Notes under the pieces: model-generated
What the model was told of the DNA's origin: nothing
Database searches by the model: none
What the model saw: the letters and a program-made list of their open reading frames with translations, nothing else
Translations under genes and position numbers: made by a program
Assembly (NCBI RefSeq): GCF_037975245.1
Contig: NC_092573.1
Coordinates: forward strand, 26,131,265 to 26,195,264
Direction: 5' to 3'
Length of the DNA: 64,000 nt
DNA from: Apostichopus japonicus
Taxonomy: Eukaryota > Echinodermata > Holothuroidea > Aspidochirotida > Stichopodidae
Shown here: positions 10,529 to 42,321 of the stretch, piece after piece
Numbering within the stretch: the stretch's first letter is position 1
Layout: each line of letters opens with the position of its first letter

Positions 10529-10809
10529 TTACATGTGGTTGAGATATGTCGCACTACTCACAAACAAAGCAAAGACAACCAGTGTCAAATTGACAGAGAA
10601 TTTGACTGAATGATTACACAAGTTTTCGTCGCAAAGACATACTTTTGCATCATCGACAGTAAGTCCCAGGCTGTCAGCAATCAGAGACAGTGAAGCTTCA
10701 TAAAAGGGGTTAATTTCGTTCAGCATATCTTGACCATAGCATTTATTCTCGATTGGTTGAAACAGTGTTACGCAAGCTGCATCTTTCCCGGTAATGGATA
10801 CATCAGAAT
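10529..10809 (-). CDS. LU paralogue 1, coding exon 3 (LU C-terminal half and GPI signal)
   Basis: Acceptor TTTCGTGCAG ends at 10810. The exon supplies cysteines 6-10, including CLCDENLCN, and the hydrophobic tail, stop at 10529-10531. The last 30 codons and following 3' sequence are base-for-base identical to paralogue 2, unlike the LU part. Confidence 0.85.
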
Positions 10810-13800
10810 CTGCACGAAAGATGTGAAGATATAATGATTTCTTATTCAACTTAGTTTAAAAACACATGCTGGCACATCATGACTTGTTGAAAACTGCAAC
10901 AAAACAAACATTTTGCTTTTTAGCTTTCTACATTTTCGTTTCGATTTAGTGCTGCTCAAATATATCTATAGCAAACAATTAAATATTAAATGGATATTTT
11001 AGTGACTGAAAATGTAAAACTGATATTGAATGAAAGATATTCTACACTGTTAATTGGAAACTGATACTTCGCAATATCTTATCTCTTACTCGAGAAGTGG
11101 TTGATTGCAAGGGCGTAGGAACCGGGGGGGCTGGGGGGGGGGGGCGCCAGCCCCCCCAGTGAAAAATGTGGAGGGGCGGAAGTATCATTCCGCCCCCCCC
11201 CCCACTTCGCAAGTCAAAAAACCCCTTTTTCATTTCCAAATGAGAAAAAAAATCTCATTTGGAGCACCAAATTGCATCTAAGGCCAGGTGAAAATACAAA
11301 ATTAAGTTTACAAAATGGAGTGGGTGTTGAAGTGTGCTATATTGCACCAAATTGCATCTGAGGCCACCTGGAAATGCAAAAAAAATCCAAAGGGGAGGGG
11401 GATCCCCCTCCCCTTAGACCCCTCCCCCAGGCCGGCCATCAGTCTTCAGCCCCCCCCCCACTCAAAAGTAACTTCCTACGCCACTGGTTGATTGCATGTA
11501 TGTAACCTATTTTCACTGGTTAAACCTTACCTTATATAGTTTCAGGAAGTGGATCACAGTGTAGGAGGGTCTGTGTGTGTGTGTGGGGGGGGGGGGGGGT
11601 TGTGTGTATTGAAAAGCTAAAGTTAAGCTCAGAGGTGGGTTCGAAGGACAATTTGACACGTGACGTTGATTTGAGGCAACCAAACTCACCACACAGCGTC
11701 CCACAATTAGATGGAGTGACTTTTGTATTATTGTTGTAAAAAGGGTTTAACAAGGGCTTTTGTAGTAAAATTGGAACAGTTTTTCATTTAAAAAATGATG
11801 CTGTTCATTAACAAGACGTGAAATTTCTAAATTATGATAAAGTTCACATTTGAGGTTTCCAACAAACTGGGACTCACGTTTTCTCTCCCTGACCACCAGC
11901 TCCGTCCCTTTCGGCGTTGCCGCCCCAGCTCAGGCTATTACAATCTTTTTGTTGATTTATCCTTGAAACCTGATACATTAATATAGATTTTCAGGCGAAT
12001 TATGTAATCTATGGCGGCTTACTGTGTATATTGTGGTGAGGCTTTACGAGCCATTTTTCAAAGCGAGCGTATTCAGTCAAACAGGAAGCGGTTAACTTAA
12101 AATTCGAATATTATAGAGTTTTTAGGTTACTGAATAATATAAATTGTCTTTGATCCCTGCCTTCGTTATTAATTGTACATTCTATGTTATTTGGAAAGTG
12201 TTGCCAAGTTTGACCTTTACCTCCTTTTTTTTGCAAAACGTATTCTAGTACAAATTACACCAAGTATGACGTTTGACCTCCTACGATCATGTGCCCCTTG
12301 GCATGTTCAATTTAACAATTAAATAATGCACTGCAAACTTGAAAAGTGCGGTATCCCACATGGTTTCTGGGTTTCGGTAATTTTGTCGTTTTCGTACGCG
12401 CATAACTGCCTAACTACTGTTTTGGTAATTTGTCCTGTGGCTTCATAAGTCATGGAGGCGCTACATCCCATATCCATGCACGCACCCACAAAAATGTATA
12501 GTCATTCGGCTATACCGTTTAGGAGTTCGTAACAAACTTTTGTTGTTGTTAACACACCCACACGTGCACCTATAGCACACACGCACACACACATTAGTTT
12601 TGCCCCCAACTTAAAAAGATGTTCCCCCATGTTACTGTGCAACCCTATGTTACCGCAAACCCCATCCCTAGTAAGACACCAACTCAAATAGTTACAGTTT
12701 GGAACTTTAAATTTGGGTTTTGTTAATACTGCACTTTTACATTATCATCGTTCATCTTGTACTATTTATCTGACATCGTGTACTTTTATATTATCATAAG
12801 GCAGAAGTGATTCGTTGGCATCGTGCCATTGCACAAATAGGCTTATTAAATGTGGTAACTCTTCGTGAAATGTCTAACGTGTGAAACATGAATAATCATG
12901 AATGATTTACAATTTAATCACTTGTTTTTATATTACCATCCTGTACTTTTACAATATCACCATGTAATTTTTCTATCATCTTCGTTTATTTTTGTATGTT
13001 TAATCTTATCAGCATGTGCTTCATATTATTATTAGTAATATCATTATCATTATCATCATTTGCGATCCTTATGGCGTTCCGAATTCATAAATTGTTTAAC
13101 ATGTTCCAAAGACTCTTGAATGAAAAAAGGTCTTACTCGATAAAGCAAACGTGCTTTTAGAACACCGGCTTCCAGGTGGACAAGTCACTGTTGTCCTTTT
13201 CACGGTGAGAAACGTATCACGAAATTCATTACAAGTGTCCCCATAAGAACTGCAATCACTCTCTACACTCAGATAGCAATCAAGTGCTTGTGCTCCTGAA
13301 AGAAGGATATAAAGACATAAACAGAAAGGAACTCTGAACCTTCTGGCGAGGTTATACCACGTTATACCACGAGGCGAGGTTATACCACGTTATACCACGA
13401 GGCGAGGTTATACCACGTTCCGACGGGGAGCACTATCAATGAAGTCAGGGGCGTCACTATGGGGAGTGGTGGGTGTGACAATCATGACGTTTCGGGGAAA
13501 TAGTTGTCGGGAACTTATCTCATGGAGACGTTTCAAGATACAGCGGGCCTCTATCTACTATCAATGTTTCAAGATATAGGCCTATATCTACTATCAATGT
13601 TTCAAGATATAGGCCTATATCTACTTTCAATGTTTCAAGATATAGCGAGCCTATATCTACTATCAATGTTTCAAGATATAGCGGGCCTATATCTACTTTC
13701 AATGTTCCAAGATATAGGCCTATATCTACTTTCAATGTTTAAAGATATAGGCCTTTATCTACTTTTATGAAGAGAAAGCAGAAACAGAAAGATAACAATT

Positions 13801-15806
13801 TTAAATGATACAAGCAACTATCAGGCTCACAATGGAGAAGCAAAAGCATTACCATTCCTAAAAGAAAGCAGAGCTTAAATTAGATGTAAAGCCAGGATGG
13901 ACAACATATTTTAGAGTAGTCCAGTAAAAAGCATTGAGATATGACAAACAATATTCACATTGGCAGCTGATAAACCGAGATGGACACTTTTCTTGTATTC
14001 AGCATACAGATTGATCTCTACCAAGACAACAGGCTTCTTCTCAAGCCTAGACAAATATTTTTAAACGTACTCTCTATTTGGCCCGGGGCCGTGACTACAA
14101 ATATACTCGCGAAAACTCGGCACTATATATGGTTGTTGTTGAAGTCTCCATCGTACAGATCTACAACATCAATACTTTCTAAGCACTCAGGCTAAGGTTA
14201 GGCATTTGGGCAGATACGTGGTGCTACGACATTGCACATTGGAAAATTATTTTTCTGTGCAGTATGAAATTAAAACTTTTTCCACCAAAAGTAAGTGTTG
14301 AACATAGTAAAACATGTCGTAGAATCATAAATAAGCAGCTAGGTTTATTGAAGTGTCTCAAACAAATTACAATTAAATTAAAGAAAAAACATCTGCAAAA
14401 ATACCTACGAAGATAGCTTATATTCTGTTACATTAGGGCTCCTCGATTACTAGGCATATACTATACAGTAGCTAGGTGTGCGCGCGTCTAAAGCCTATAC
14501 AGTACCTCACTGCTACGTTGAACCATAACCCAGTCGATTAGTGCGACTTCGTACATTCTCCCAGTTATATACCATGTTCGTTAGCTGCATATTGATGCGC
14601 GAATAATATCATGATTACTCCATTGCACTGCCTAAATCAAATCGATCTTTCTCGCAATGAAAACCTATGATTGACTGATTGCATGTATTGAGATGTTTGG
14701 CCAACTTAAGTGTATTGGTATTCTGACACGAAACATTTTTAACAATGCTTATTGTTAGTAGTATACCTGCATATACTCTACTGCATATACTCTACAGGGC
14801 TTGACTGCGCATAACCAATTAGCCGTCGTGATATCGACGGTTCTTATTTGTTAACTGGTTGATAAATTAATATATGAACACAACATATTTAATGAATAAA
14901 GCACATGACGTACGTAAGCACAAACATTTCCCTCTAATAAATGGTAATTTTAGATTTTAAATGATGCTTTCGCTGTATGTTTGTAAATGCTCCATGAAGG
15001 TTGTGAACAATCTCCGCACACGAAAACCACTCGTACATAATGCACGTACAGATAGCGAACCATTTACACTGTTAACTCGAATTGAGATCGGTCATTGATA
15101 AAATCTAACTAGGCAACAGTTAATTTTAGTAAACGACGCCTAGCCATTTACCCAATGTAACTATACATCCAAACCTGAAGTTTTTATTTGGCACTGAATC
15201 TCGACAATTGCGAGAAAAAAAAACAACGGAAGCAAATATATAATACCGATGATCGTTCGTTCCAATAACAACGATGTAAGAACAAGGGTACACCTTGTTG
15301 CACACATGGTATGTAACCAAAGTATGCAGTGAAGGGACAAACTGAAGCATATGGACGTTTGTTTGTTTACATTAACTGAATGTGACTTAACGTGACTTTA
15401 CTCAAAATCCAACATATCTTCCAAGCAGTATCCCCTACCGGTATCCATCCTTGTTTAATTACATGGCTTTGTACTGGTCATTTCTTTACCTGTACAATGA
15501 TAACGACAAATAGAATGCTGGAGGTTCTTCTTAAACGATAGAAGATATACATAGGCCTAAATATAGGGAATGTTAAACGATTGACCAGGTCTGAGCATCA
15601 ACGTAGCCCCATCCCCGCCCCCCCCCCACCCCACCAGCCCAACTCACCGGTTCGTCAGGACTGCTCAAGCGTATTGCAGTTTGTGCAGTGCTAACTTCGG
15701 AATATTATAATTGCTTTTTTTTCCTTCAAAATTTTAAACTCACCATGACACAGAAGGCCAATGGAAATAGCAACAACGGCAAGGATCTTCATGGTATACG
15801 CTTTAT
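10529..15806 (-). CDS. LU-domain (Ly6/uPAR) GPI-anchored protein, paralogue 1
   Basis: Three coding exons splice in phase 1 / phase 1 (15744-15792, 13137-13295, 10529-10809) to give 162 residues. Order: signal peptide beginning MKILAVVAIS; mature start near ALDCY; ten cysteines (five in exon 2, five in exon 3) ending with the CLCDENLCN signature of three-finger LU domains; then a hydrophobic C-terminal segment LVVFALFV that fits a GPI-attachment signal. Expected on the outer face of the plasma membrane. A non-coding first exon (donor at 16878) and CCAAT-type promoter lie upstream. The intact duplicate is at 30.3-42.3 kb. LU proteins act as receptors, ligand-gated-channel modulators or complement regulators; the ligand here is unknown. 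Exons were placed by splice sites and phase and agree in both copies. Confidence 0.85.
11108..11486. mobile_element. hAT-type MITE, 379 bp
   Basis: Ends CAAGGGCGTAGGAA and TTCCTACGCCACTG form an imperfect inverted pair. The flanks carry an 8-bp duplication GTTGATTG (11100-11107 and 11487-11494). Internal C- and G-homopolymer runs sit next to both ends. A relative with a nested insertion is at 42548-43794. It lies in an intron of LU paralogue 1. Confidence 0.88.
11572..11599 (+). repeat. Compound (TG)n(G)n microsatellite
   Basis: TG repeats run straight into about 15 G residues. The segmental duplicate has a shorter version near 30818-30832. Confidence 0.85.
13137..13295 (-). CDS. LU paralogue 1, coding exon 2 (LU N-terminal half)
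   Basis: Acceptor TTCTTTCAG ends at 13296 and donor GTAAGA begins at 13136. 159 bases, phase 1 on both sides. Encodes the end of the signal peptide, LDCY and five cysteines. Against paralogue 2, 14 codons differ and every one changes the amino acid. Confidence 0.85.
13346..13420 (+). repeat. 28-bp minisatellite in LU paralogue 1 intron
   Basis: Unit GCGAGGTTATACCACG plus a second TTATACCACGAG segment, two full copies and a partial third (13347, 13374/5, 13402). The segmental copy near 34126 has only one partial unit, so the array expanded after duplication. Confidence 0.85.
13535..13765 (+). repeat. 33/36-bp minisatellite
   Basis: About seven units built around ATCTACTATCAATGTTTCA followed by AGATATAGGCC, some with a 3-base GCG insertion. 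Both strands stay open because the unit is a multiple of three, which produces spurious frames. The segmental copy (34250-34385) has only about four units. Confidence 0.88.
13770..15743. other. LU paralogue 1 intron, no other gene seen
   Basis: Aligns to 34390-42258 of the second copy minus the insertions there. It preserves the empty target sites for the Penelope-like element (near 14750) and the U2-headed SINE (near 15235). No independent coding signal. Confidence 0.6.
15744..15806 (-). CDS. LU paralogue 1, coding exon 1 (start codon and signal peptide)
   Basis: Acceptor TTCCAACAG ends at 15807. ATG is at 15790-15792. Donor GTGAGT begins at 15743, leaving phase 1. Encodes 16 residues of hydrophobic signal sequence. 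The duplicate exon is 42259-42321. Confidence 0.85.
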
Positions 15807-16877
15807 CTGTTGGAATAATATAAGGAACGTAGAAATATTGTTGTATGAATTAGAGCTTTCCCAGTAGCAAACAGTTATTTTTTATTTTTTTTATTTTGTT
15901 TTTGATGACGTTTATCACGAAGTTTTGATTGTCCTTAATTAGGCTAATCAATAGTTTTTGTCTTAAAGGTGGTGGGTCTCTGAGTAACACGTCATTATCA
16001 TAAGCAATACAGTCATAGTAGGTTGCTATAGCTCGCCGTGCGTTTTTATAATGTATGCAGTTGCATATTAATAGTGGTTATTGGGTTATTAGTTCAAGGT
16101 TATCGTGCGTTGAAGTCAAGAAAATGTTGATTGACATAGTAATAATCAACTTTATAAAACAAAGGAAACATTGTTATCTTTGCAATCGGGGACGAGAAAG
16201 CTAGGTAGGTGTGGAAGATATCTTTGTAAACCATGCATGGACATGTATCATTTATAATATATAATTGTTGTTAAGAAGGGTATCATTAAGATGAAGATGG
16301 TTGCTCGTAGTGTTGAAATTACTGCAGATGCTTAACAATAATTATATATTATAATTATTAATTATATAATTATATTATCATAAATAATGTATCTACGGTA
16401 CGGTACTGTATGTAATTTAACCACAATGCAGTACGTGTTTGAAGAGTTTCCGTGTAAAATCGGGATCCAACATAAGCCTAAACAATCATTTCCTATCTCT
16501 CCGGGTACACGCGATACATTTTACTAGTGATTCACCAGACTGATATGGGTGAGGGGACACGTAGGGAAAACTAGCTAGACGCGAAATGGTGCTATAAATT
16601 ACTCGTCTCAAGCCGGTGCAAGGGTTCAGAATAATTCAGTTTTTTTTTACCGATAACACATAAATTCATGAATGAAAGCTTGAATCGCTTGATGACTCAA
16701 ATGTGATACCTTGAATGATTTTCACTCGACTGAGTGATTTCCCCCGCCTGGCTACGGATTTGTGCACGCCACTGGTTAGTTGCACACAATTGTACCTTAA
16801 CAACCGATTAAAAAGGCCGGATATTTTATGTAGAAAACAGCGAATATCTTAGATAAACTTGTAGAATTAATATTTAC

Positions 16878-17000
16878 CTGAATAAGAAGAGCTCCACTTG
16901 AAGACATAGATAAAATGATGGTGATTAGTGCCGGGAATGGTCTACTTTAGTTCAGATCTAGAGGCAAATGTTACTGGAGACAGTTATCTCTATTGATATG
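16878..17000 (-). other. LU paralogue 1, probable non-coding first exon
   Basis: A clean donor CAG|GTAAAT at 16877/16878, conserved in the second copy (CAG|GTAGGT at 44976), follows a stretch conserved between copies just downstream of the CCAAT boxes. The 5' end is approximate. Confidence 0.5.
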
Positions 17001-17014
17001 TATCATTATTCCTC

Positions 17015-17062
17015 ATCAGTGATTGGTCCGTTCACTTAAAAGCTTAACCAATCCCATTACGA
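17015..17062 (-). promoter_or_regulatory. LU paralogue 1 promoter candidate with two CCAAT-type boxes
   Basis: On the minus strand, ATTGG at 17048-17052 and CCAAT at 17022-17026 bracket a TTTTAAGT stretch. The block is almost unchanged at 45109-45156, upstream of paralogue 2, although neighbouring intron sequence has diverged and gained insertions. Confidence 0.45.
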
Positions 17063-18760: not shown

Positions 18761-20084
18761 CCCAACTTGTCTTAATTATAGTCAGTACACCACAAATAAC
18801 CTTAAATTCCACCCGTTGGTAGATTGTATCATAACTGGGCTAGTTGAAATTAGTTGAAGCTAGTTGAATACAACAAAGCAACTCATACTGTATGTCATGA
18901 TGTCGTATGTAAATTATAGCATACTATTTTATATGCACCAGATTTGGTCAATATGCTGCAGTCAAAACATTCATGGCAACAATATAAAGGTTAAACAGTT
19001 TTACAGTATGAAGTATGTACAGATTTTGTCAAGTAAAATAAGTATGTATAATTTTATTCTATAGGGTTACTGTGGCAAATTTACCATGTGTTACCCCAAT
19101 TTAACCTTAGCTGATTACCGCTGTAAGACTATGGTACATTTACTTGTTGGGAGTATGTATAACCTTTTTTCTTATATCTTAAGTAAGGTGATATATTATT
19201 GTATTCATGTCCTTTTTAACTGTTTGTCCAAACTTTCTGGCAATCCTGGACTTGCCTTTCATTTAAAAATTCCGTCCTACTGCTTTACCTCAAGTCTTTT
19301 CATAGTGTTTAAAAGCTATGTTTTGTTGTCTCGAAATTTAATGTAATATGAACGAGAAATAAAGAGAACAAACAATAAATGTGTTGTTATTCTTAAAAAA
19401 AAGTTCTTTGACAAAAAGCACTGGCAGGAATTTGACTCTTTGCAGTGGCAGGGCTTGTACTTGGCAGAGCACCAGCATGGGTTCATCTTCAGAGTCTCAA
19501 GCTAAAATAATTGCTGGTGATAAATGCAAACCAGTTTGAGTGTCTGGTTTTAGCGAGTAGTACAAAAAAAAGCGAGTGTTACGATATGGCATTGCCTGCA
19601 TGTGTTGTTATGTGTGGATACCGGATGTACCAAATCGATGTATTTGCAGTGAGTATTTCATTATCTCCAGGCGTCTTTATGCCCCTACCCACACCGAAAA
19701 GTCATTTTACTGCAATGAATAATGCCTCCTATCATTCGATATAAGCATGGAGTTCCATGATATAAGCAAGAAGATTCCACAGCGACAGCTGGCAGATGGG
19801 AAGGGGAGCTCTATGAATTTGAACTCTTCTGGCTCAAAATCTAAACTGTCGTGGTGGCAAAAGTTGAATGTTCATGATAGCCCAAGCCATTAGCTATCAT
19901 ATGGTGGGTAGGACATGTCAATTGAAAACTTCTTTCTATGCTCAATCGGCCTTTGAAAGTGACGAGTTAAGTGTGTAAGTCAATGGGAGCAATTAATTGT
20001 GGAACGGTACCTGTTAATTACCGGCGATGCTTATGGAACGCCAAAAGGGAAATCGGTGGCGCTATACTACCCTAAACAGCAGAG

Positions 20085-20576: not shown

Positions 20577-22984
20577 TTATAATAGGATTATAGATGTTGA
20601 GGAAGGTCTGTAGGATAAGAGGATGATCAATGAAATGAGGATTATAGATGTTGAGGAAGGTCTGTAGGATAAGAGGATGATCAATGAAATGAGGATTATA
20701 GATGATGAGTAAGGTCTGTAGGATAAGAGGATGATCAATGAAATGAGGATTAAAGATGTTGAGGAAGGTCTGTAGGATAAGAGGATAATCAATGGAATGA
20801 GGATTATAGATGTTGAGGAAGGTCTGTAGGACAAGAGGATGATCAATGAAATGAGGATTGAAGATGTGGAGGAAGGCCTGTAGGATAAGAGGATGATCAA
20901 TGAAATGAGGATTATAGATGTTGAGGAAGGTCTGTGAGATATGAGGATGATCAATAAAATGAGGATTATAGATGTTCAGGAAGGTCTGTAGGATAAGAGG
21001 ATGATCAATGAAATGAGGATTATAGATGTTCAGGAAGGTCTATATATAAGAGGATGATCAATGAAATGAGGATTATAGATGTTGAGGAAGGTCTATATAT
21101 AAGAGGATGATCAATGAAATGAGGATTATAGACGTTTTGGAAGGTCTGTGAGATAAGAGGATGATCAATAAAATGAGGATTACAGATATTGAGGAAGGTC
21201 CGTACGATAATAGGATGATCAATAAAATGAGGATTATAGATGTTGAGGAAGGTCTGTAGGATAAGAGGATGATCAATGAAATGAGGATTATAGATGTTGA
21301 GGAAGGTCTATATATAAGAGGATGATCAATGAAATGAGGATTATAGATGTTGAGGAAGGTCTATATATAAGATGATGATGAATGAAATGAGGATTATAGA
21401 TGTTGAGGAAGGTCTGTAGGATAAGAGGATGATCAATGAAATGAGGATTATAGATGTTCAGGAAGGTCTGTAGAATAAGAGGATGATCAATGAAATGAGG
21501 ATTATAGATGTTGAGGAAGGTCTATATATAAGAGGATGATCAATGAAATGAGGATTATAGATGTTCAGGAAGGTCTATATATAAGAGGATGATCAATAAA
21601 ATGAGGATTATAGATGTTCAGGAAGGTCTGTAGGATAAGAGGATGATCAATGAAATGAGGATTATAGATGTTCAGGAAGGTCTATATATAAAAGGATGAT
21701 CAATGAAATGAGGATTATAGATGTTGAGGAAGGTCTATATATAAGAGGATGATCAATGGAATGAGGATTATAGATGTTCAGGAAGGTCTGCAGGATAAGA
21801 GGATGATCAATGAAATGAGGATTATAGATGTTGAGAAAGGTCTGTAGGATAAGAGGATGATCAATGAAATGAGGATTAAAGATGTCGAGGAAGGTCTGTA
21901 TATAAGAGGATGATCAATGAAATGAGGATTATAGATGTTGAGGAAGGTCTATATATAAGAGGATGATCAATGGAATGAGGATTATAGATGTTGAGGAAGG
22001 TCTGCAGGATAAGAGGATAATCAATGGAATGAGGATTATAGATGTTCAGGAAGGTCTGCAGGATAAGAGGATGATCAATGAAATGAGGATTATAGACGTT
22101 TTGGAAGGTCTGTGAGATAAGAGGATGATCAATAAAATGAGGATTATAGATGTTGAGGAAGGTCTATATATAAGAGGATGATCAATGAAATGAGGATTAT
22201 AGATGTTCAGGAAGGTCTGTAGGATAAGAGGATAATCAATTAAATGAGGATTATAGATGTTGAGGAAGGTCTGTAGAATAAGAGGATGATCAATGAAATG
22301 AGGATTATAGATGTTCAGGAAGGTCTATATATAAGAGGATGATCAATGAAATGAGGATTATAGATGTTCAGGAAGGTCTATATATAAGAGGATGATCAAT
22401 GGAATGAGGATTATAGATGTTGAGGAAGGTCTGTAGGATAAGAGGATGATCAATGATATGAGGATTATAGATGTTGAGAAAGGTCTGTGGGATAAGAGGA
22501 TGATCAATGAAATGAAGATTATAGACGTTTTGGAAGGTCTGTGAGATAAGAGGATGATCAATAAAATGAGGATTATAGATGTTGAGGAAGGTCTATATAT
22601 AAGAGGATGATCAATGAAATGAGGATTATAGATGTTCAGGAAGGTCTGTAGGATAAGAGGATAATCAATGAAATGAGGATTATAGATGTTGAGGAAGGTC
22701 TGTAGAATAAGAGGATGATCAATGAAATGAGGATTATAGATGTTCAGGAAGGTCTATATATAAGAGGATGATCAATGAAATGAGGATTATAGATGTTCAG
22801 GAAGGTCTATATATAAGAGGATGATCAATGGAATGAGGATTATAGATGTTGAGGAAGGTCTGTAGGATAAGAGGATGATCAATGATATGAGGATTATAGA
22901 TGTTGAGAAAGGTCTGTGGGATAAGAGGATGATCAATGAAATGAAGATTATAGATGTTGAGGAAGGTCTGTAGGATAAGAGGAT
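20577..22984 (+). repeat. 54-bp minisatellite array (about 45 units)
   Basis: Unit of 54 bp starting GAGGATTATAGATGTTGAGG, with a 53-bp variant in which TCTGTAGGATAAGAGG becomes TCTATATATAAGAGG. Recurrent variants (GTTGAGG / GTTCAGG / CGTTTTGG) mix along the array. A block of eight units is repeated in full: the segment starting 22095 recurs at 22524 (period 429). Because 54 is a multiple of three, long minus-strand frames rich in I, L and S appear; I do not consider them genes. Confidence 0.95.
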
Positions 22985-22988
22985 GGCT

Positions 22989-29750: not shown

Positions 29751-30273
29751 ATATCAAAGAACAGATGTAAGTAAAATTCATGGCATATATACATCAAACG
29801 TTTTGAGTCAGCGAGATGACCTCATAAAGGTCATATACCCAAAGATGGGGATGAGATCATTAACTCCATGAATTGTACACTTTCTTATTCCATGCCTTGA
29901 ACTACTATATCGTTACTCATGAAACGGATCCCCTGAAACGCTATAAGCCACTCTTCTGAGTGTCTTTTGTTACTTATCTATTTTTCTCATATGCCTTGAG
30001 CCATATTTTAGGATAAATGCCTCTTCTCGTGCTAGTACCCTGATATATTTTACTCGTGGTTGTAGTATTCAGTGCTTTTTGGATTCTAGTACACTCGTGC
30101 AATATTAATATTCCAATTCTAGCATCACTATGACAAAAGCGTAGATAATATAAGAAAAAGAAGGAAGAAAAATAAACTACACCTAAAAATAGTCAATTCT
30201 GAGTATAAACAACCACCCACACAAGCATAACAAAATAACTCGAAAATACAGAGCAGATTTCATAACCTCATCG

Positions 30274-30554
30274 TTACATGTGGTTGAGATATGTCGCACT
30301 ACTCACAAACAAAGCAAAGACAACCAGTGTCAAATTGACAGAGAATTTGACTGAATGATTACACAAGTTTTCGTCGCAAATGCATATTTCTGCATCATCG
30401 ATAGTAAGTCCCAGGAGGCTGGCACCCAGAGACAGTGAAGCTTCATAAAAGGGGTAAATTTCGTTCAGCATATCTCGACCATAGCATTTATTATCGATTG
30501 GTTGAATCAGTGTTATGCAAGCTGCATCGGTAATGGTAACGGAAAAATCAGAAT
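30274..30554 (-). CDS. LU paralogue 2, coding exon 3
   Basis: Acceptor CCGTATAG ends at 30555. Supplies cysteines 6-10 and the GPI signal; stop at 30274-30276. Relative to paralogue 1: about 16 replacement and 2 silent codon differences, all upstream of the final 33 codons. Confidence 0.85.
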
Positions 30555-33500
30555 CTATACGGAAGATGTGAAGATATAATGATTTCTTATTGAACTCAGT
30601 TTAAAAACACATGCTGGAACATCATGACTTGTTGAAAACTGCAACAAAACAAACATTTTGCTTTTTAGCTTTCTACATTTTCGTTTCGATTTAGTGCTGC
30701 TCAAATATATCTATAGCAAACAATTAAATATTAAATGGATATTTTAGTGACTGAAAATGTAAAACTGATATTGAATGAAAGATATTCTACACTGTTAATT
30801 GGAACGACGGTCTCTGTGTGTGGGGGGGAGGGGTGCTGGGGATATTAAAAAGCTTTAGTTAAGCTCAGAGGTGGGTTCGAAGGACGGTGTGACACGTGAC
30901 TGTGATTTGAGGAAAACAAACTCACCAAAGAGCGTCCCACAATTAGATGGAGCCTATGTGACTTTTGTAGTATTGTTTTAAAAAGGGTTTTGTAGTAAAA
31001 TTAGAACAGTTTTTTAGATGCTGTTCATTAACAAGACGTGACATTTCTAAATTATGATAAAGTGCACATTTGAGGTTTTTCGCAACCTGAAACTCACGTT
31101 TTCTCTCCCTGACCACCGCTATGGAACGCGAAAAGGGCAAACTTATTTCGTTGTCTAAACTAAGTTTGTTGTTGTCTAAACTAAAGTTGTTGCTGCTGTT
31201 TTACCACCATGTTGCTCAAACTCACGTTGTTGTCTAAACTTCCGTTGTTGCCGTCGGCGCTGTTCAAAATTGTTCAACCGCGTAATGTACACCAGAATGC
31301 AAAATGCATTAAGGTTTCGATGACTTCAGTACACTAGAAAGTTGTTAGTATATGCAGAACTAGCTGTTACTATAGAAATGGCCCAAACCATCATTTTGAT
31401 ACCTGAACACTATGGCATGATAAAATGTTACAAGAGACAAAAGTTTTCAACCCGATCGAACACCAATTGAGTTTATTATATGACCTATACTTTTACTAGT
31501 GTAGTTGTGAAGATGCGATCTTATCACTGCATGTACTTTGTGAATGCTCTACACAATATATATGGCGGATGCCATCCAGTGCCCTAGCTTTGCTGTTTTA
31601 CAGGGGCGGCCGTCCGACCTTCATTTCGCCTGCCCTGCCACGTTTACCTCCTCGCCAACTCCATTTATAGTATAGGCCTACAGATGCTTTGACCTGCAGC
31701 GATTTCACCAGCAACCCCAACTCTTCAAATATCCCCGCACATGTAATATGCATATCTCGCTAAATTCCACGCAATTTGTATAAGCCTGTTCAAACTTCGA
31801 ACTTTCAACTGTGCATGTGCATATCGTGAAAAATTGTGGAGAAAATATCATATCACCTTACCTACAACACATAGCTTTAGTCAAAACTCGAGTGTATCTT
31901 GGATGATTCGTTTTTTGCATAACATGTTAGCGGTCATTTTGGTCTAAAAATTCTTAACAATGCTGAGCGACGTTTGTGTATATTCCGTTTACAACACAAT
32001 CCCTTTCGCAAATCGAAACTCCGAACTGGTGTGGTGTTAGGAATGAACTTGCTTGACGGGTTTAGTAAACTAGTTCTGTGAGTATATTGCCTACGTACTT
32101 TAATAGTGTGCCCTTCTTGTTACTCACGAAGCGCAGATTACATCCAACCATAGAGCAACTGATCCAACATTTACCCTGGATGCTTTGCAGTATTTGGAAA
32201 CAACCAACTCCACGAAAATTATAGTATTTAAATAACATTTTTACGCAATGTCGAAACTTCAATGACTATACTTTTGACGATTCATGAAAACAGTAGTTTA
32301 CACACACGAATCAGTGTTGCACCAGAATCATGACTTGAAGCACATGGTCAAAGGGACCTCGAAAATTTACGCAAGTTTGCATCGAAGAAATAACTGTGGT
32401 ATAAATACACATTTGACATTATCAACTCTCAATACGGAGAGAACAAAACATATTGTGAGATGAAAAGTCCTTTCAGTATCAGAGATGTTGTGGTAGCTTC
32501 CCGCAAAATTCATAGATTGTCTCAACTAATAACCTTCTGTGATCAAACAATTATTCAAATATTACGAACTCGGAGTTGTATCAACTATCATGTAAATATC
32601 GTTAAACAACGTGATTTTGTTCGACAAATCAGGTTGTTAACGATATTTACATGGCTAATTGCTACAAATCAGGACGTTAACGATTTCCCCTTTTCGCGTT
32701 CCATAGTTAAACCATTATACTTTGCGTTCATTGGGCACTGAACATGCGTTTGCAGACAATGGGTAAGGGACTATTAACCAAACAAATCTCGTGAAATTTG
32801 AGAAAACATCATTGGCTGTATTTAGCATGAAAATCTCTGTAATAGATGTGTTTTTAGCTCTGCACGGAAGCAATTTGCGGTTGATTGTTATAATATTTAG
32901 ATTTTTTGTGTGGAAAGAATGATGTTTGTTCACAAAAGTGTTACAACAACGGAACTTTAGATAGCAACGAAAGTGTAGACATCAACGTGAGTTAAGACAT
33001 CAACGTGAGTTTAGATATCAACGTAAGTTTAGACATTAACGCGCGTTTAGTCAACAACGTGACTTTAGATATCAACGTAAGTTTAGACATCAACGAACAA
33101 CAGCAACATGGTAAAATAGCAGCAACAACTTTAGTTTAGACAGCAACAAACTTAGTTTAGACAACGAAATAAGGTTGTCCTATTCGCGTTCCATACACCG
33201 CCTCCCTCCCATTCGGCGTTTCCGCAATATTGTTATATGTGTAATGGCCAGAACGCCGGTTTTGCTGGTTTTGAACTTTGACCTTTAACCATATGACGTC
33301 ATTAATCTCGCAGACATTGCATTCTTAGCTCAGGCACATACCCACCAAGTCCACATTAGTTTTTGCCCCTAACTTAAAAAGATGTTCACCCCATGTTACT
33401 GTACCACCCTATGTTACCGCCCACCTCATCCTAGTAAGACACCAACTCTAATAGTTACAGTTTGGAACTATAAATTTGGGTTTTGTTAATACTGCACTTT

Positions 33501-36500
33501 TACATTATCATCGTTCATCTTGTACTGTTTTTCTTACATCGTGTACTTTTATATCATCATAGCCAGAAGTGATTCGTTGGCGTCCTGCTATTGCACAAAT
33601 AGGATTATTAAATGTGGTAAATCTTTGTGAAATGTCTAACGTGTGAAACATGAATAATCATGAATGATTTACATTTTAATCACTTGCTTGTATATTACTA
33701 TCATGTACTTTTACAATATCAACATGTAATATTTCTATCATCTTCGCATATTTTTGTATGTTTAATCTTATCAACATGTGCTTCATAATTTTATTAGTAA
33801 TATCATTATCATTATCATCCTTTGTGATCCTTATGGCGTTCCCTAGAAAAGACAACCTTACCAATTCATAATTTATTTAACATGTTCCAAAGACTCTTGA
33901 ATGCAAAATGGTCTTACTCGATAAAGCAAACGTGCTTTTAGAACACCGGCTTCCAGATGGACAAGTCACTGTTTTCCTATTCCCGGTGGTCATCGTATCA
34001 CGAAATTGATCACAAGTGTCCCCATCACGACTGCAATCAGTCTCTGAACTCTGATAGCAATCAAGTGCATGTGCTCCTGAAAGAAGGAAATAAAGACATA
34101 AACAGAAAGGAACTCTGAACCTTCTGGCGAGGTTATACCACGTTCCGACGGGAAGCACTATCAACGAAGTCAGGTACGTCACTACGGGGAGTGGTGGGGT
34201 GTGACAATCAGTGACGTTTCGGGGAAATAGTTGTCAGGAACTTATCTCATGGAGACGTTTCAAGATACAGCGGGCTTATATCTACTATCAATGTTTCAAG
34301 ATATAGGACTATATCTACTTTCAATATTTCAAGATATAGGCCTGTATCTACTTTCAATGTTCCAAGATATAGGCCTGTATCTAGATTTATGAATAGAAAG
34401 CAGAAACAGAAAGATAACACTTTTAATTGATACAAGCAACTATCAGGCTCAAAAATGGAGAAGCAAAAACATTAAGTTTCTTAACAGAAAGCAGTAGATA
34501 TAAAGCCAGGATAAACAACATACTTCAAAGTAGTCCAGTAAAAAGCATTGAGATATGACAGTCAATATTCACATTAGCAGCTGATGACCGAGATGGACAC
34601 ATTTCTTGTATTCAGCATACAGATTGATGTCTACCAAAGACAACAGGCTTCTTCGCAAGCATATAGACTAACATTTTTAAACGTACTCGCTATTTGGCCC
34701 GGGGCCGTGACTAAAAATATACTCGCGAAAACTCGGCACTATGATTGCTTTTCAAGTCTCCATAGTACAGATCTACACAATTGTTTTGTGCACAAAGGTT
34801 AGGCACTTGGGCAGATACATGGTGCTACGAAATTGCACATTGGAAAATTATGTTTCTGTACACTATGAAATTTAAACTGTTTTCCACCAAAAGTAAGTGT
34901 TGAACAAACTAAAACATGTCGTAGAACCATAAATAAGCAGCTAGGCTTATTGAAGTGTCTCAAACAATTAAAGAAAAAACATCTGCAAAAATACCTACGA
35001 AGATAGCTTATATTCTGTTACATTAGGGCTCCTCAATTACTAGGCATATACTATACAGTAGCTAGGTGTGTTCGCGTCCTAGGCATATACAGTACCTCAC
35101 TGCTACTTTGAACCGCTACTCAGTCGATAAGGGCGACTTGGTACATTCTCCCAGTTATATACCTTGTCTTTTAGCTGCAGACTGGTGCGCGAAAAATATC
35201 ACGATTACTCCATTGCACTGCCTAAATCAAAGCGATCTTTTACGCAATGAAAACATATGATTGACTGATTGCATGTAGAAAATGCCTTAAGAAATAATTG
35301 AGATGTTTGGCCATCTTAAGTGTATTGGTATTCTGACACGAAACATTTTTAACGATGCTTATTGTTAAATTCTTTCCACAGCACCATCAAATTCACCTCT
35401 GATTACTCTCACCAACATGTTAATTTTCTCAATGTGACTGCTCGCAAGGAACACTGTTCTCTCTCTACAGACTTATACACCAAACCCACAGACACACACC
35501 AGTATCTCCATTCTTCAAGCTGCCCTCCCCGTCACTACAAGTCTGGAATTGCCTTCAGTCAAGCACTTCGTCTTCGTCGCATTTGCTATAACAATTCCTC
35601 TTTCATTCGCCATACAGATGCTTTGGAAAAACACCTTACTGCCAGGGGCCATAGTGCCAGAAGGGTGCGTGAAGCGATTTAGAGAGTCCGCTCCCTTTCC
35701 AGATCATCTACTTTGGAAGTGAAGAACAAAAAGGGACGAGATTGCAACATCAAGCTCCCCCTGGTTGTTACTTTCCACCCAAATCTTCCACCTCTGCAGC
35801 AAATCACCTCTGACAACCACAACATTCTCCTCACTCCAGATAGACTCCAACGAGCCGTCCCTGAAAAACCAATCATCGCCTACAGACGACCCCGCAACCT
35901 ACGAGACCTTATTGTGCGTGCTGCTCTGTGTTCCACCTCTAACTTCTAACACTACACCCATTCAGCATGGTACCTTCAAATGTGACCGTACTTCGAGATG
36001 CATCGTCTGCAGCCACCACATTGTTGAATCCAATTCCATCTCCAGCCACAGCATGCAACTCGCACACAAGACTAAGGGTCACATCACTTGCACAACCACT
36101 AATGTCATATATCTGATCTCTTGTAGAGTTTGCGGCATCCAGTATGTTGGCGAAACCAAAACCACCCCCAAGAAGCGATTCTATGGTCACAGATCCACAG
36201 TCAACACCATGAAGACTGAGGCCCCAGTTTGCGAACACTTTAACCTTCCCAACCATACCATTAACGACATACAGGGGATTGAGTCCTTAGGAAGCCGTAC
36301 TGACCTAGTACGAATCAGCAGAGAGAGGCTGTGGATACAACGCTTTCGCACCATTCAACCTCATGGGCTCAACATTCAGGAAGGACATGACTAACTTTTC
36401 TTCTGTGCCCCTCCTTCTCCCCTTATTTCCCCGCCCCCCCCCCATCTCTCCCCTTCTCATAGCTCTCTTCCACTCTTTTTTCTCCACACCTTTCTGTCTT

Positions 36501-39500
36501 TGTCCTTCTCCAGTTTATTCCCTACCCCTTCCCTTAATCCTCTCTTTGTATCTCCACTGTTTATCTCCTACCTCTCCTCTTCCCCTGTTGGTTTCTTTCT
36601 TTCTTCTCTCCATCCCTTGTCTACTAATCCCCTTACATCTATCTCTTTGTGTTCACCATGCTCATTAACCTGTCTGTATTCTGTGTGTTTTTGTCCCGTC
36701 TGTTACTGTTACTTGTCATTTAGCCTTTGCAGAAGATCCTGCTAGGATCGAAACGTCAGGCCAACTTACTTTTACACAATGCTTATTGTTAGTAGTCTAC
36801 CTGCATATATTCTACTGTGCAGGGATTGCCTAAGCATAACCAAGCCGTCGTGATATCGATGGTTCATATTTGTTAACTGGTTGATAAATTAATATATGAA
36901 CACAACATATGTAATGAATAAAGCACATGACGTACTTCGTTAGCACAAACCTTTCCCTCTAATAAATGGCAATTTTAGATTTAAATGATGCTTTCGCTGT
37001 ATGTTTGTAAATGCTCCATGAAGGTTGTGAACAATCTCCGCACATGGAAACTTCCCGTACATAGTGCACGTACAGATAGCAAACCATTTACACAGTTAAC
37101 TCGCAATGAGATCGGTCATTGATAAAAATCTAACTAGGCAACAGTTAATTTTAGTAAACGACGCCTAGCCATTTACCCAACGTAACTACACATCCAAACA
37201 TGAAGTTTTTATTTGGCACTGAATCTCAACAATTGCGAAATACGACGGAAAACTTCAACAACGGAAGCAAATTTATAATACTTTTTAAGAAAAAGTCACC
37301 CAGGAAAGAACCTGGGCACGAAAACCAAACTACCAAACGACTGATCCGCTCTCAGCCCCAGTCCCCTTGCATCGGGACTGTGACTGTGTGATCATCGTCA
37401 GGTGTGTATCACCATTCCCGAAGGGAACAGATACTACACATGATCTTAGCCAAAAGGCCGAGAAGCGAATTTATAATACCGATGATTCAGTGATATCGTT
37501 CGTTCCAATAGCAACGCTGGATGAACAAAGAGTACACCTTTTGCACACAATGTATGTAGCCAAAGTATGCAGTGAAGGGACAAACTGAAGCCTATGGACG
37601 TTTTTTCGTGAGAAGTTTTGATTCGATTCTACCGATGCCCTTTAAGCTAATTTCCAATTGCCAACAGTATCCTATTCTTAAGATGAGCAACGCACATGTG
37701 ATCTTATATTCTGGTCTGTATGAGATATACAAACAAGGTTTCCATAAATTTGGCCTCTGGTCACTCCAAATGACCTTTGACCACCACAAAAAAACAAGAG
37801 GTTTCTTGCATTTAACGTGTAACAACTACATACTAAATATGAGATTGTTCCAAGCTTTCCTTCTTGAGATATCGTGTTTACAAGGTTTTCACCATTTGAC
37901 CGGTACCCCCATCCAAAAAACAAACAAAAACCAATAGTCTTATTTATTTAATATGGTTCTTCTATAGACCAAAAATTGCTCCAAGCTCCCCTTAAGTTAT
38001 TGAGATATCTTATTTACAAAGTTTCCACAATTTGACCCCTGGTGACTTCCTACTCACCAAATATGAGCTTGGTCCAAGCTTTCCTTCTTGAGATATCGTG
38101 TTTACAAGCAAGGCGTCACACAGACATACCCAAGTGTTAAAATCCACCATTGTTCATATCCACGTACCCTAACCTTAACAATAGCCTACACCATAACAAT
38201 AGAATTCTTTTATGGACGTGGTGATTCTTAAGAAATCACATTTAATTCTTTTGTTGAAGTCCTCGGTCAGAATACATAACAAGTGCCCACGTACACCCAC
38301 CCACACGCACTCTCATTCGCTTGCATGACTACAAAGGTTACGATTTCATCGATACCAAAAATGACATGCTCAAATATTCTGTGTTTTTGACATATAACAC
38401 GCAACACTAGTAACATGTAACCATAATTATAGACAGTGGCATATGTAGCCAAAGCTTCCAAAACACGAGGGGCTGAAAAGCGGCAGTGGGGCCATTCCAC
38501 AGAAGAACTTCATGTTACAGATGCTACGGTGGTCGTTTTCATTCAAAATTGCAAATTTCATCTTTCATCACGAAATATTGACATTAATCTCATACGTTTG
38601 ACGCTTTACCTTTAAATTGTGACATTTTGAAACTGTAATGGTTTATCATAAAATTCCGATATTTTTATCTCGAAATTTCCATGTTTAATCATGAAATGTT
38701 TACGATTTACCGTGTTCCTTCCAAGTCGGCATTTCATCTAATTTTCAATTTGAAAATGTGAAATTTTACCGTTAAATTGCGACGTTTTATCCACCCAGTT
38801 TTGACGTTTTATCTTCAAATTTCGACATTTTGTCTCCAAGAGTCTGAACGCTTATCTCGACGTTTCATCTCGAAATGTTAATTTGTAGTAATGATATTAT
38901 AATTCAAAATTTTGAGGAATTATGTCAGTCAAAATGAATGATTTGAATGTATAGGTTACATTTGTTCATGACGATTGAGTATTCATGGGTTATCCGAAAT
39001 ACGAAACATTTGGTCGGGACAAACACGTCGATTCTCCTGAATGAAATTATCTAATATTGGATTCTCCACTCTTCCAACGTTTTAGTGCTGTCGCATTCCA
39101 CCCTTCTCTGTCACTGATTCCAGGGGGGGGGGGGGGGGTGAATGAAGTGTCGGAAGAATTGTTGAGCGGTTTAACAATCTATTTACATCTTTGAAACTGA
39201 CAGTCCAGATGAAATTACATGAAGAACTACCATTACACTATTAACATTAACTGAGTGTGACCTAACGTGACTTAATTTTTGTTTCCTAACTCAAAATCCA
39301 AAAAATCTTTCAACTTGTATCCCCTACCGGTATCCATCCATGTTGAATTACATGGCTTTGTACTCAGGTGCGTATCCAGGGGGGAGCGTTGGGGGCGCGC
39401 GCCCCCCGGGTTAGGAAAAGAGGAGAGAAAAAAAAGAGAAGAAAAAAGGGAAAGGAGGGGGAAAAAAGAAAAGGAGGAGAGGAAGGAAGGGAAAAGAAAA

Positions 39501-42321
39501 AGAAAAAAGAGAGAAAAAGGAAAAAAGGAGGGAGTAGAAGATAGCCAATACCTCGGGAAGAGAAAGAGGAACAGTCATAGTTAAAGCGCTGATCCCTATA
39601 ACATACACAGGGTAGCCAGTGACAGATCAAGGATTACGGAGGGGGTGTGCGCCTCACCCTACCCCTTACACCGACAACTCCATTTTTGACGTTTCCATTT
39701 TTCCTCTCTCACTAATGTATCTACATAAATACTATATATGCTCTATCATAACGCGTGTGTGTGTATGGACGCCTTAAACAATTGTGCTATATGGAACCAA
39801 CTGTGGCTGGTCTTGAACTCGACCGAGTCGTCGGGGTACATGACGCATTTCGGGAAGGGGGCGACCGCCCCCAACCCCCCCCCCGAGCAAATTTTCTTTA
39901 TGACATCGCTATAGTAATTTCAAAATAGACTATGCTTAGATGCAACTTACAAGGCCTGGGAAGTGTCATTTCCAGCGATCTGGGAGGCATTTTCGGCCAA
40001 ATTTTTTCTTGTACGCTTCACGCTAACTCATGGTGGCGCTTCGCTTAGATAGTTTGCCTACAGGCTTCGCCCCTCCCTTGGCAATTACTCGCTACACGCC
40101 TGTTCGAATTTGTAAAGCAAAGAGCAGATATAACATCATATCAGTGAGCATTGAAATGCATGTGCCACGATGAACAGCCTCAAAAACTGTCTATGTGTGT
40201 AGTTAAAGGCGTAGGAGCCCAATTGGATTTGGGGGCTGTAATCAAGGGCGGCGGAACCGGGGGGCACAGGGGGCACGTGCCCCCCACTTTTCCTCAGGTT
40301 AAAAATGTGCCCTTTTTCTGCATAAAAATTGAGGTGTCTCAAGTTAGCAAGAGGCCAGGGAACCAGAATGAACACTCGGGAAGGGCCGTTTCCGGCCATC
40401 TGAGGGGTTTGTAAAACCAAAAATTTCTTGTACGCTCCGCGCCAACCGATGGTGGCGCTCCGCTCAGATAGTCGTGAATAAAATTTGCAAATCCTGGCTA
40501 CCCCCCTAACTTTTAGTGAATTTCTGTGGGTCATACTCAAAGCTATTTCGAATGGAAAAAAATGTCTGCATATTAACAAGAAATAAACTCTAATTCGGAA
40601 GATTCCTACATTAGCAACTAGCATGATTTCACCTCATTTTGTCTCAAAAGAAAACTTGTTCCTTGTTTCCCAATTTGCACATTGGATATTGCAGTGCTAG
40701 TATGCATATTTTCCTTGAAGGGGGGTGGGGCGTTGATGGAGTGATGTGTATACGCAAAGAAGATAATACAATAAGAGCTATAAAGGGTACTAAATATAAG
40801 GCTGCATCAGTCCAATCGAATTTCTGCAAAGTGCCCTTCGATGTCGGTGCCCCCCAGATTGAAAGTGCTTCCGCCGCCCTTGGCTGTAATGACTTGCCCG
40901 AAAAAAGCCAAAATTTCAACATATCAATGCCAATATCATATAAGCAAGCATCGGTCATTACAGTGCATGGCATCGTGTACCTTACGGTCCGTGAAAGTTG
41001 CACAGTATACCGCCGGATGCTATGTAAACAACGAAATGTCTTATGTAGATGGAGAAAAGTCATACAGATCCATTTATGTCAAAACTCTCTTTTACAGTAG
41101 TAATGTCGGCCAAGCTTAGAACTTTATTTTAATTACCAAGGAAATAATTGTTAAGCTATTCATTGCTATTTATTTTTCTTTCAGTAGGTGCCCGAAAAAG
41201 ATGGGGAAAAATTTGGTTGCGGGGGGGGGAGGGGGAGGGGGCTGCAGCCACCGCCTCCTACGGGACCTACGCCTATGTGTGTAGTGTTCGGTTTCGATAT
41301 ACCTGATATCGGAAATATCTGCTATTTTTCATTTCCTTCAACCAAGTTTTATAATAGCCGTTCTAAGAGGTTTTAATATTTCTACACCAATAAATTAACT
41401 GTGTCTGAATTTTCGAAAATTTCCTCACCAACATTCTTCATCATACTTTCCTCTACTCGTGCAACTTTGACCTGTCTTTTAGGGGTTCATGGAGGATTTT
41501 CTATATTGCTTGTCCATAGATTGAATTTTGTGCAACATTATGGGTATGTTTTGAAGTGATTTTATTCACGAGAAAAGTGAATTTTCAAATTCTCAACAAA
41601 TAATGGGCTTAAAACCTTGAAAAGTGGGGCTTTCGGATATTGTAGGCCGTGACGTAGAATCACCTACAAAAGCAATGATCCATAGGACATGCAATGAGGT
41701 CGAACATGATGTGTGACAATCTTCAAAAAGGTTATGGATGGAAAAAACTTTTGGGAAATACTTGGTTCTCAGGCAAAAGTGTACATCTGGTGGGTCATTT
41801 TCAAGCCCGAGAAGTGCTATTTCCGGTGATCTGGGGGGTATCAAAACCAGAAATTTTCTTGTACGCTGCGCGCCAACCGATGGTGGCGCTCCGCTTAGAT
41901 AGTAATTCGCGCCCCCCGGGTTAGAAAATCCTGGATACGCGCCTGGTACTGGTCATTTCTCTACCGGTACAACGATAACAACAAACACTATAAGGACGAA
42001 CTCATCATAACAACAGAATCTCAGACCTTATAGAGAGTGCTGGAGGTTCTTTTTAAACGATAGAAGACATACATAGGCCTCAATATATGGAATGTTAAAC
42101 GATGGACCAAGTCTGACCATCAACGTAGCCCCCCCCCACCTCCACCCCAGCCCAACTCACCGGTTCGTCAGGACTGCTCAAGAGTACTGCAGTTTGTGCA
42201 GTGATAACTTCGGAATAAAATAATTGGGTTTTTTTCTTCAATATTTCGAATAACTCACCATGACACAGAAGGCCAATTGAAAGAGCGACAACGGCAAAGA
42301 TCTTCATGGTATAGGCTTTAT
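30274..42321 (-). CDS. LU-domain (Ly6/uPAR) GPI-anchored protein, paralogue 2
   Basis: Same structure as paralogue 1: exons 42259-42307 (coding part), 33918-34076 and 30274-30554 join in phase 1 / phase 1 to 162 residues without a stop. Signal peptide starts MKIFAVVALS, mature start HALDCY, ten cysteines ending CICDENLCN, hydrophobic GPI-type tail. All splice sites are kept although the introns have taken in a foldback element, a Penelope-like element, a SINE and several hAT-type elements, stretching the gene to about 12 kb. The LU part differs from paralogue 1 almost only by amino-acid-changing substitutions, while the tail is identical in DNA. Cell-surface location is expected; ligand unknown. 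Confidence 0.85.
31120..33195. mobile_element. Foldback (TU-like) element, 2076 bp
   Basis: Ends TATGGAACGCGAAAAGG and CGCGTTCCATA lie inside a 6-bp target duplication CACCGC (31114-31119, 33196-33201). The inverted arms continue for over 100 bases and consist of imperfect repeats of GTTGTTGTCTAAACT (left) and TTTAGACATCAACGTGAG (right, about seven units). Copy 1 has the near-empty site around 11897. The interior holds another inverted pair (32595 / 32637) and a second copy of the end sequence (about 32690). No transposase. Modular foldback elements with repetitive arms were first described in sea urchin as TU elements; membership is inference. Confidence 0.85.
33918..34076 (-). CDS. LU paralogue 2, coding exon 2
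   Basis: Acceptor ending at 34077 and donor GTAAGA beginning at 33917 match paralogue 1 exactly in position. Encodes LDCY and cysteines 1-5. Confidence 0.85.
34250..34385 (+). repeat. 33/36-bp minisatellite, short allele
   Basis: About four units of the array found at 13535-13765 in copy 1. Confidence 0.8.
35367..36778 (+). mobile_element. Penelope-like retroelement, 5'-truncated, 1412 bp
   Basis: Flanked by the 12-bp duplication ATGCTTATTGTT (35355-35366, 36779-36790), single in copy 1 near 14748. It carries the C-terminal reverse transcriptase region and a GIY-YIG endonuclease, then a pyrimidine-rich 3' tail (36400-36720). Inserted into the LU paralogue 2 intron after duplication. Confidence 0.92.
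35370..36394 (+). pseudogene. Penelope-like RT C-terminus plus GIY-YIG endonuclease (decayed)
   Basis: The first part (to 35680) has the typical Penelope block LYTKPTDTHQYLH and SGIAFSQALRLRRIC. An in-frame TAG at 35680-35682 interrupts it, the frame continues to PEKPIIAYRRPRNLRDLIV, and a frameshift before 35949 leads into the next frame. That frame has a Cys-rich linker (CDRTSRCIVC), the GIY-YIG-like core YLISCRVCGIQYVGET, TTPKKRFYGHRS, VCEHFN, and RERLWIQRF. Family assignment is strong; the copy cannot make full-length protein. Confidence 0.9.
37282..37467 (-). mobile_element. SINE with U2 snRNA-derived head, 186 bp
   Basis: On the minus strand the element starts TCGCTTCTCGGCCTTTTGGC, continues with AAGATCATGTGTAGTATC and TGTTC (the conserved 5' end of U2 snRNA including the branch-site-pairing GTAGTA, one difference from the vertebrate sequence), then leaves U2 for about 135 bases of unrelated body with a hairpin (CCCAGGTTCTTTCCTGGG) and ends in CTTAAAAA. 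It is flanked by the duplication AATTTATAATAC (37270-37281, 37468-37479). Copy 1 has the empty site near 15238. Hence a retroposed SINE, not a U2 gene. Confidence 0.88.
37600..39238. other. Insertion specific to segmental copy 2 with degenerate repeats
   Basis: Absent from copy 1 (junction near 15363). 37770-38110 has three imperfect units around CCAAGCTTTCCTTCTTGAGA followed by TATCGTGTTTACAAG. 38530-38890 is a degenerate 20-odd-base repeat of TCGAAATTTCGACGTTTTAT type. A G-run is at 39123-39137. No gene and no resolved element ends. Confidence 0.6.
40008..40053 (+). repeat. Dispersed 46-bp hairpin module, copy 2
   Basis: Core CTTGTACGCT ... CTTAGATAGT, with one arm base altered (CACGCTAA instead of CGCGCCAA). 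Confidence 0.8.
40427..40472 (+). repeat. Dispersed 46-bp hairpin module, copy 3
   Basis: Core with intact GCGCCA / TGGCGC arms; ends CTCAGATAGT. Confidence 0.8.
41858..41903 (+). repeat. Dispersed 46-bp hairpin module, copy 4
   Basis: Intact core, 42 bases from the right end of the composite TIR element, suggesting the module is subterminal. Confidence 0.8.
42259..42321 (-). CDS. LU paralogue 2, coding exon 1
   Basis: Acceptor CCAACAG ends at 42322, ATG at 42305-42307, donor GTGAGT from 42258. Two replacement and two silent differences from paralogue 1. Confidence 0.85.

Follow-up and report, generated by a model that had tools for sequence, protein, structure and literature searches.

Two tandem genes, here called A and B, in a 64,000-nucleotide stretch of contig NC_092573.1 (C13) of the sea cucumber Apostichopus japonicus (the window, to which all positions without a contig label refer) are probably working paralogues for surface proteins of the Ly6/uPAR type (LU) with a glycosylphosphatidylinositol (GPI) anchor. 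Their LU part, chiefly the half encoded by exon 2, would have been driven apart by positive selection, while the scaffold was kept and the anchor region later converted. Diversifying selection is moderately supported by the tests reported below and would be ordinary in kind for LU genes; the added value lies in a gene-conversion mosaic around exon 3 and in the partial repetition of the signal within the family. Sequences, counts, tests and tracts are observed here; that the genes are expressed, that their products reach the surface and bind a partner, and where the selection comes from are inferences.

Structure and divergence of the two genes

A and B lie on the minus strand of a single chromosome-sized contig (26,780,764 bases), separated by about 21 kb; after splicing, the three exons of each give an open frame of 162 codons, with GT..AG internal junctions and phase-1 introns. 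In gene A, coding exon 1 (15744–15792) encodes the putative signal peptide (16 codons plus one base) and ends at the phase-1 donor GTGAGT; coding exon 2 (13137–13295), with AG/GT borders, encodes the first half of the LU part, with cysteines C1 to C5; coding exon 3 (10529–10809), with an AG border, encodes C6 to C10, the hydrophobic tail and the stop. The coding exons of gene B, identified by open frame and splicing, are found at 42259–42307, 33918–34076 and 30274–30554. The two proteins align without gaps over 162 residues, their starts resemble a signal peptide by eye, and the ten cysteines of the LU part (codons 21–135; 115 residues) and the splice sites are retained in both copies, as an earlier note on this DNA had claimed. 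With frames, splice sites and cysteines intact, a pair of pseudogenes is ruled out. Intron 1 of gene B also contains a U2 spliceosomal RNA-like sequence (37243–37469, minus strand; 53.5 bits) and an open frame at 35723–36391 that carries a GIY-YIG endonuclease domain (E 1.2e-5) and is presumably a fragment of a Penelope-like retroelement.

The products look like GPI-anchored LU proteins because they combine a signal-peptide-like start, ten cysteines and a hydrophobic tail with a three-exon gene. Their cysteine spacing (C-7-C-6-C-16-C-5-C-19-C-10-C-33-C-1-C-4-CN in both) matches the LU-like order of 8–10 cysteines, and nine cysteine columns show no variation when A, B and the other family sequences, 14 in all, are aligned. 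In passages of PMC8904931, LU genes are described as having three coding exons, with the bulk of the signal peptide encoded by the first, and this is the layout of A and B; after the residues LCN, the hydrophobic tail reaches a mean hydropathy of 1.97 in 15-residue windows, in keeping with a C-terminal GPI signal. The same passages describe a terminal CCxxxxCN motif as strictly conserved in three-finger proteins, whereas C-x-C-xxxx-C is found in all 14 aligned sequences, and the copies on contig C9 also lack the final N. With C-x-C-xxxx-CN instead of CCxxxxCN, the two proteins are therefore non-canonical in this respect and are treated here as LU-like.

Profile searches were less telling. Full-length A and B matched no Pfam family at E ≤ 1, while at a loose threshold (E ≤ 10) QVR (PF17064) was matched by nine of the 14 family sequences, a set that includes A and B (best E 0.0028), and UPAR_LY6 (PF00021) by four (best E 0.0039). 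The LU part of B covers the entire QVR profile at 9.1 bits (E 3.6), for a cut-off of 27.3, and the curated profile cut-off was reached neither by this part nor by full-length A or B. When the B sequence was searched against the PDB, the two matches (E 0.21 and E 0.95) were weak and looked unrelated, the family profile matched no solved structure, and a genome search with PF00021 found nothing at the genes studied here. The LU label proposed in the earlier note is thus right in kind (cysteine order, exons, tail) but weak by profile. The sole match above the cut-off in the PF00021 genome search (C8:28890900–28891049, G000) lies away from the LU genes described here.

Splicing and codon comparison reproduced exactly the per-exon counts of that note: A and B differ at two replacement and two silent codons in exon 1 (4 nucleotides), at 14 replacement and no silent codons in exon 2 (18 nucleotides), and at 16 replacement and two silent codons in exon 3 (25 nucleotides), the last 27 codons, after LCN, being free of differences. 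By the Nei–Gojobori method (NG86), replacement (dN) and silent (dS) divergence are 0.120 and 0.052 for the whole gene, 0.161 and 0 for exon 2, and 0.159 and 0.047 for the LU part. Silent divergence therefore remains below replacement divergence after codon alignment, so that the reverse, which the note had named as fatal to its claim of selection, was not found. Of the nine inter-cysteine segments of the LU part, eight contain some of its 29 changed residues, the largest numbers falling in C7–C8 (8 of 33 residues) and C3–C4 (7 of 16), the latter of which we take to be finger II by the usual finger order. Codons 113–116 of exon 3 (10670–10681 in gene A, minus strand, coordinates counted from the exon borders) align better as DNA when two compensating 3-nucleotide gaps are allowed (score 1186 gapped versus 1180 ungapped), and a compensating indel is likewise possible, by eye, at codons 75–78. 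Six of the 16 replacement codons of exon 3 may therefore not represent independent point substitutions, and we define codons 75, 77, 78 and 113–116 as the seven indel-prone codons.

Tests for positive selection on the pair

Pairwise codon maximum likelihood (ML) and the site models M1a and M2a were run with our own code. By pairwise ML, the dN/dS ratio (omega) is 3.71 for the LU part (p 0.022) and unbounded for exon 2 (p 0.0040). The noncoding DNA of the locus differs at 426 of 4,605 aligned columns (359 of 4,228 once the outermost block is set aside), and the replacement divergence of exon 2 (18 of 121 sites) exceeds it (one-sided Fisher p 0.004 to 0.032, depending on the yardstick). At the noncoding rate and spectrum, 21.5 replacement and 7.2 silent changes would be expected in the LU part, and 38.5 and 3.5 are observed.

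Adjacent differences are twice as frequent in the noncoding DNA as expected (61 versus 30.5), and we therefore used an empirical null in which noncoding difference patterns (from the 359/4,228 columns) were placed on the coding sequence in 20,000 draws. Under this null, the joint outcome of the LU part (N ≥ 29 replacement and S ≤ 2 silent codons) has P 0.0036, with joint P values of 0.017 for exon 2 alone and 0.055 for exon 3. The imbalance between replacement and silent changes thus exceeds chance, but the assertion that a neutral or constrained gene would show many more silent changes was overstated, since silent codons number only about five over the LU part and about two over exon 2 in these draws.

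For the site models, the 117 whole codons of exons 2 and 3 were used (18–69 and 71–135), and nulls were simulated with 10% two-base mutations and with cysteines and stops protected. The likelihood-ratio test statistic (LRT) of M2a over M1a is 21.2, a value reached by none of 300 simulated nulls, and 11.3 when the seven indel-prone codons are removed, a value reached by one of 200.

Probable gene conversion around exon 3 and relatives in the genome

The exon 3 block of the two copies is a mosaic. A first identical tract (10496–10635 in A, 30241–30380 in B; 0 differences in 140 columns) covers the start of the 3' untranslated region, the hydrophobic tail and the last LU residues. It borders an island of divergence on the minus strand (10636–10806; 25 of 171), which accounts for the larger share of the LU sequence in exon 3, and a second identical tract lies in intron 2 (10874–11059 in A, 30619–30804 in B; 0 of 186) and ends where homology ends. 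The remaining segments, i.e., the 3' flank and the intron edge, show 27 differences in 233 columns and 6 in 67. When the 4,717 columns with their 406 differences were shuffled 5,000 times, identical runs were at most 160 columns long and the runner-up always stayed below 140; the second tract is counted here as 186 columns in one block, since a run of 200 joins two alignment blocks. A Fisher comparison of the island with the tracts was discarded as circular because the tracts had been selected for identity, and the shuffle test was used instead.

The identical tracts on either side of the island, which are new here, are in all appearance the mark of recent gene conversion. One conversion event spanning the entire block is implausible, as it would require 31 differences to have arisen in the middle against none in the 326 flanking columns. 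Two tracts that bypassed the LU part, or selective removal of conversions that reached it, would fit. Passages of PMC3728101 interpret divergent islands that persist despite conversion as a pointer to selection. As here, a divergent coding segment between homogenised tracts is read there as possible selection for difference, but that system concerns another gene and was shown across populations, whereas ours is a single genome. We thus propose that, after duplication, the exposed LU part, above all its exon 2 half, diverged by positive selection with its disulfide scaffold retained, and that ectopic gene conversion would later have re-equalised the membrane-anchor tail, the start of the 3' untranslated region and part of intron 2.

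The genome (671,581,487 bases in 35 contigs) was then searched for relatives. A DNA search with the exon 2 region of A retrieved only A and B in the 671.6 Mb. Protein searches identified a third relative at C13:557,604–558,582 (30–36% identity), more distant relatives clustered on C20 (26.41–26.74 Mb), C8 (40.96–41.07 Mb) and C9 (1.63–1.67 Mb), one on C7, and weaker matches elsewhere in the genome. At 13 of these loci, the LU part is split by an exon 2/exon 3 border compatible with phase-1 GT..AG splicing (by eye, from codons), and the eleventh cysteine counted in C20 and C9 copies is part of the splice donor. Rate tests were applied to three of the five copies of C20 subfamily 1, to eight and then five of the eight copies of subfamily 2, to four C8 copies and to three C9 copies, leaving out L008 and L009 (stop codons), L019 (an exon 2 fragment), L001 (the third relative on C13) and L023 (on C7). 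The first subfamily 2 tests included L015 and L016, which have a low-complexity tail, and L017, in which S stands for C at the end of exon 2; the first C20 and C9 tests took in one or two codons made partly of splice-site bases and were rerun without them.

The LRT of M2a over M1a is 25.3 in the C8 group (reached by 0 of 80 simulations) and 16.3 in C20 subfamily 2 (0 of 61); in the latter it is 12.3 when only the five copies whose tail and exon end are intact are kept (1 of 80) and 16.5 for all eight copies without the splice-site codons. It is 0.0 in C20 subfamily 1. The site-model signal is thus repeated in two of the four sister groups, which makes selection a family-level question. For exon 2, omega is unbounded for A/B in this comparison (p 0.0044), 1.75 for C8 (p 0.21), 1.25 for C9 (p 0.73), 2.07 for C20 subfamily 2 (p 0.16) and 0.27 for C20 subfamily 1 (p 0.024). 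For exon 3, no value is significant (A/B 2.0, C8 1.6, C9 0.6, subfamily 2 1.5, subfamily 1 0.55).

Two further observations concern these clusters. The stop codons of L008 and L009 lie in exon 3, and the C20 cluster therefore also contains decaying genes. In the C8 cluster, exon-3-like open frames follow one another in twos or threes at L005, L024 and L025, every frame bearing a C-x-C-like end of its own and, unless truncated, a hydrophobic tail; these frames are possible candidates for alternative last exons of LU genes.

Alternative explanations, known systems and other features of the window

A number of results weigh against positive selection on the pair. At face value, several of them favour relaxed constraint, i.e., LU loops drifting almost freely (omega about 1) apart from the cysteines and the tail, with a silent shortage owed in part to luck, the pair having been picked by hand. 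By pairwise ML, neither the whole gene (omega 2.30, p 0.068) nor the LU part of exon 3 (omega 2.0, p 0.27) is significant. The silent deficit of the LU part, taken alone, has P 0.057 among the 6,996 empirical draws of similar size. Without the seven indel-prone codons the replacement excess loses significance (27.5 versus 20.1 expected, P 0.08) and the shortage of silent changes (1.5 versus 6.7 expected, P 0.038) carries the test, so that the imbalance is then a silent shortage as much as a replacement excess. Moreover, since the pair was chosen for looking odd, p values near 0.01 are affected by that choice. The sister groups also speak in part against the proposal: none of C8, C9 and subfamily 2 shows by itself a significantly raised exon 2 omega, only one of 28 subfamily 2 pairs has an LU-part omega significantly above 1, and copy-to-copy exchange may inflate the site tests of that subfamily. 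In C9, the LRT of M2a over M1a (3.2, without splice-site codons) is not significant, and C20 subfamily 1 shows the opposite, constraint, in exon 2 as well as in two of its three pairwise comparisons of the LU part, where omega is significantly below 1. Relaxed constraint nevertheless appears unlikely in view of exon 2 (p 0.004), the joint outcome of the LU part, the site-model values that almost no simulated null attained (0/300 and 1/200), and the signal that recurs independently in C8 and in subfamily 2 of C20. Altogether, the diversifying selection claimed in the earlier note is supported for exon 2, for the LU part and in the site models but not for the whole gene or exon 3, and the word "strong" depends on 42 base changes; a strong claim from exon 3 was rejected given its p of 0.27 and its indel-prone codons.

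The many replacements could also reflect few events, if a more diverged, third LU copy had donated blocks of the LU exons or if compensating indels had occurred; diversity would then be generated by exchange, as in the accelerated segment switching of three-finger venom genes. The better alignment of codons 113–116 with a gap pair, the doubled frequency of adjacent differences even in noncoding DNA and the identical tracts, which indicate conversion at this locus, are all compatible with such exchange. We consider it improbable, however, since no donor was found in the genome (two exon 2 copies by DNA search, the next protein relatives being about 30–36% identical) and since the differences in exon 2 are scattered over four inter-cysteine segments, where a gapped alignment brings no gain. 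Finally, A and B might be two alleles placed end to end in the assembly, given that high heterozygosity is common in marine invertebrates. This is very improbable and was rejected on the noncoding divergence (8.5–9.25%) and on private insertions, i.e., stretches of intron 1 of B without counterpart in A (the GIY-YIG element fragment and most of the U2-like RNA); the copies moreover lie apart on a single chromosome-sized contig.

If positive selection did separate A and B, their products are most likely lipid-anchored surface receptors or modulators, held on the outer side of the cell, whose fingers meet a partner that itself changes. Such a partner could be a ligand of microbial origin, a variable marker of self or a protein of the gametes, and two copies with different fingers could widen or split the binding repertoire; immune and gamete roles are indistinguishable from the present evidence. 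A more ambitious proposal, which we regard as doubtful, is that the genes on C13, C20, C8 and C9 form a dispersed, turning-over repertoire of GPI-anchored LU receptors, with fingers repeatedly diversified, anchors converted alike and tandem duplicate last exons in C8 perhaps adding splice diversity, as a candidate for immune, self/non-self or gamete recognition.

Comparable systems are known from the literature. According to passages of PMC2474615 and PMC2711939, viperid three-finger toxin genes combine accelerated exon change (ASSET) with conserved intron segments. Like A and B, they have two introns and three exons, with intron segments alike, exon segments changing and the fold kept, whereas A and B have a hydrophobic anchor tail, show no venom-gene marks and differ mostly by scattered substitutions, with segment-like change only in parts of exon 3. 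Plethodontid modulating factor (PMF) is described as a rapidly evolving LU reproductive protein shaped by duplication and positive selection (passages of PMC8904931), and Bouncer as another LU reproductive protein (passages of PMC10267171). PMF and LU reproductive proteins share with A and B the three-finger family and three coding exons with the signal peptide mostly in the first, but they are vertebrate proteins, and the family motif described as strictly conserved is CCxxxxCN, whereas A and B end in C-x-C-xxxx-CN. Closer by taxon, 48 LU proteins are reported from the starfish Asterias rubens, and starfish Lystar5 is located on coelomocytes (passages of PMC11595613); most of these are small proteins carrying one LU domain and a predicted GPI site, in which they resemble A and B. 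Homologues of Lystar5 are reported there from all echinoderm classes, mostly with at least 70% similarity and less in crinoids and one brittle star, whereas A and B diverge fast.

Among the matches listed in the one literature collection searched, no paper addressed selection in sea cucumber LU genes and none described a sea cucumber LU recognition repertoire; the main text of the Holothuria glaberrima genome preprint (PMC13228809) contains none of the terms "Ly6", "uPAR", "three-finger" and "LU domain". If true, positive selection on A and B would place an echinoderm example beside the venom toxins and salamander pheromones already known as LU proteins that change rapidly under selection, and would name concrete genes for the study of coelomocytes and gametes, while the island between converted tracts would be a compact natural example of selection possibly keeping copies apart despite homogenisation.

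Elsewhere in the window, a long minisatellite-like array with a unit of about 52–54 bases (by eye) occupies 20590–22985, with strongly skewed GC content (GC skew 0.505 over the 2 kb starting at 20001). An open frame of 1,001 residues (979–3984) gives a weak UvrD-helicase match below the cut-off (E 0.0075), and broken frames similar to it by eye are found at 48811–50865. Similar coding-like repeat units, also seen by eye, lie on opposite strands at 51136–52088 and 54467–54910, forming an inverted repeat.

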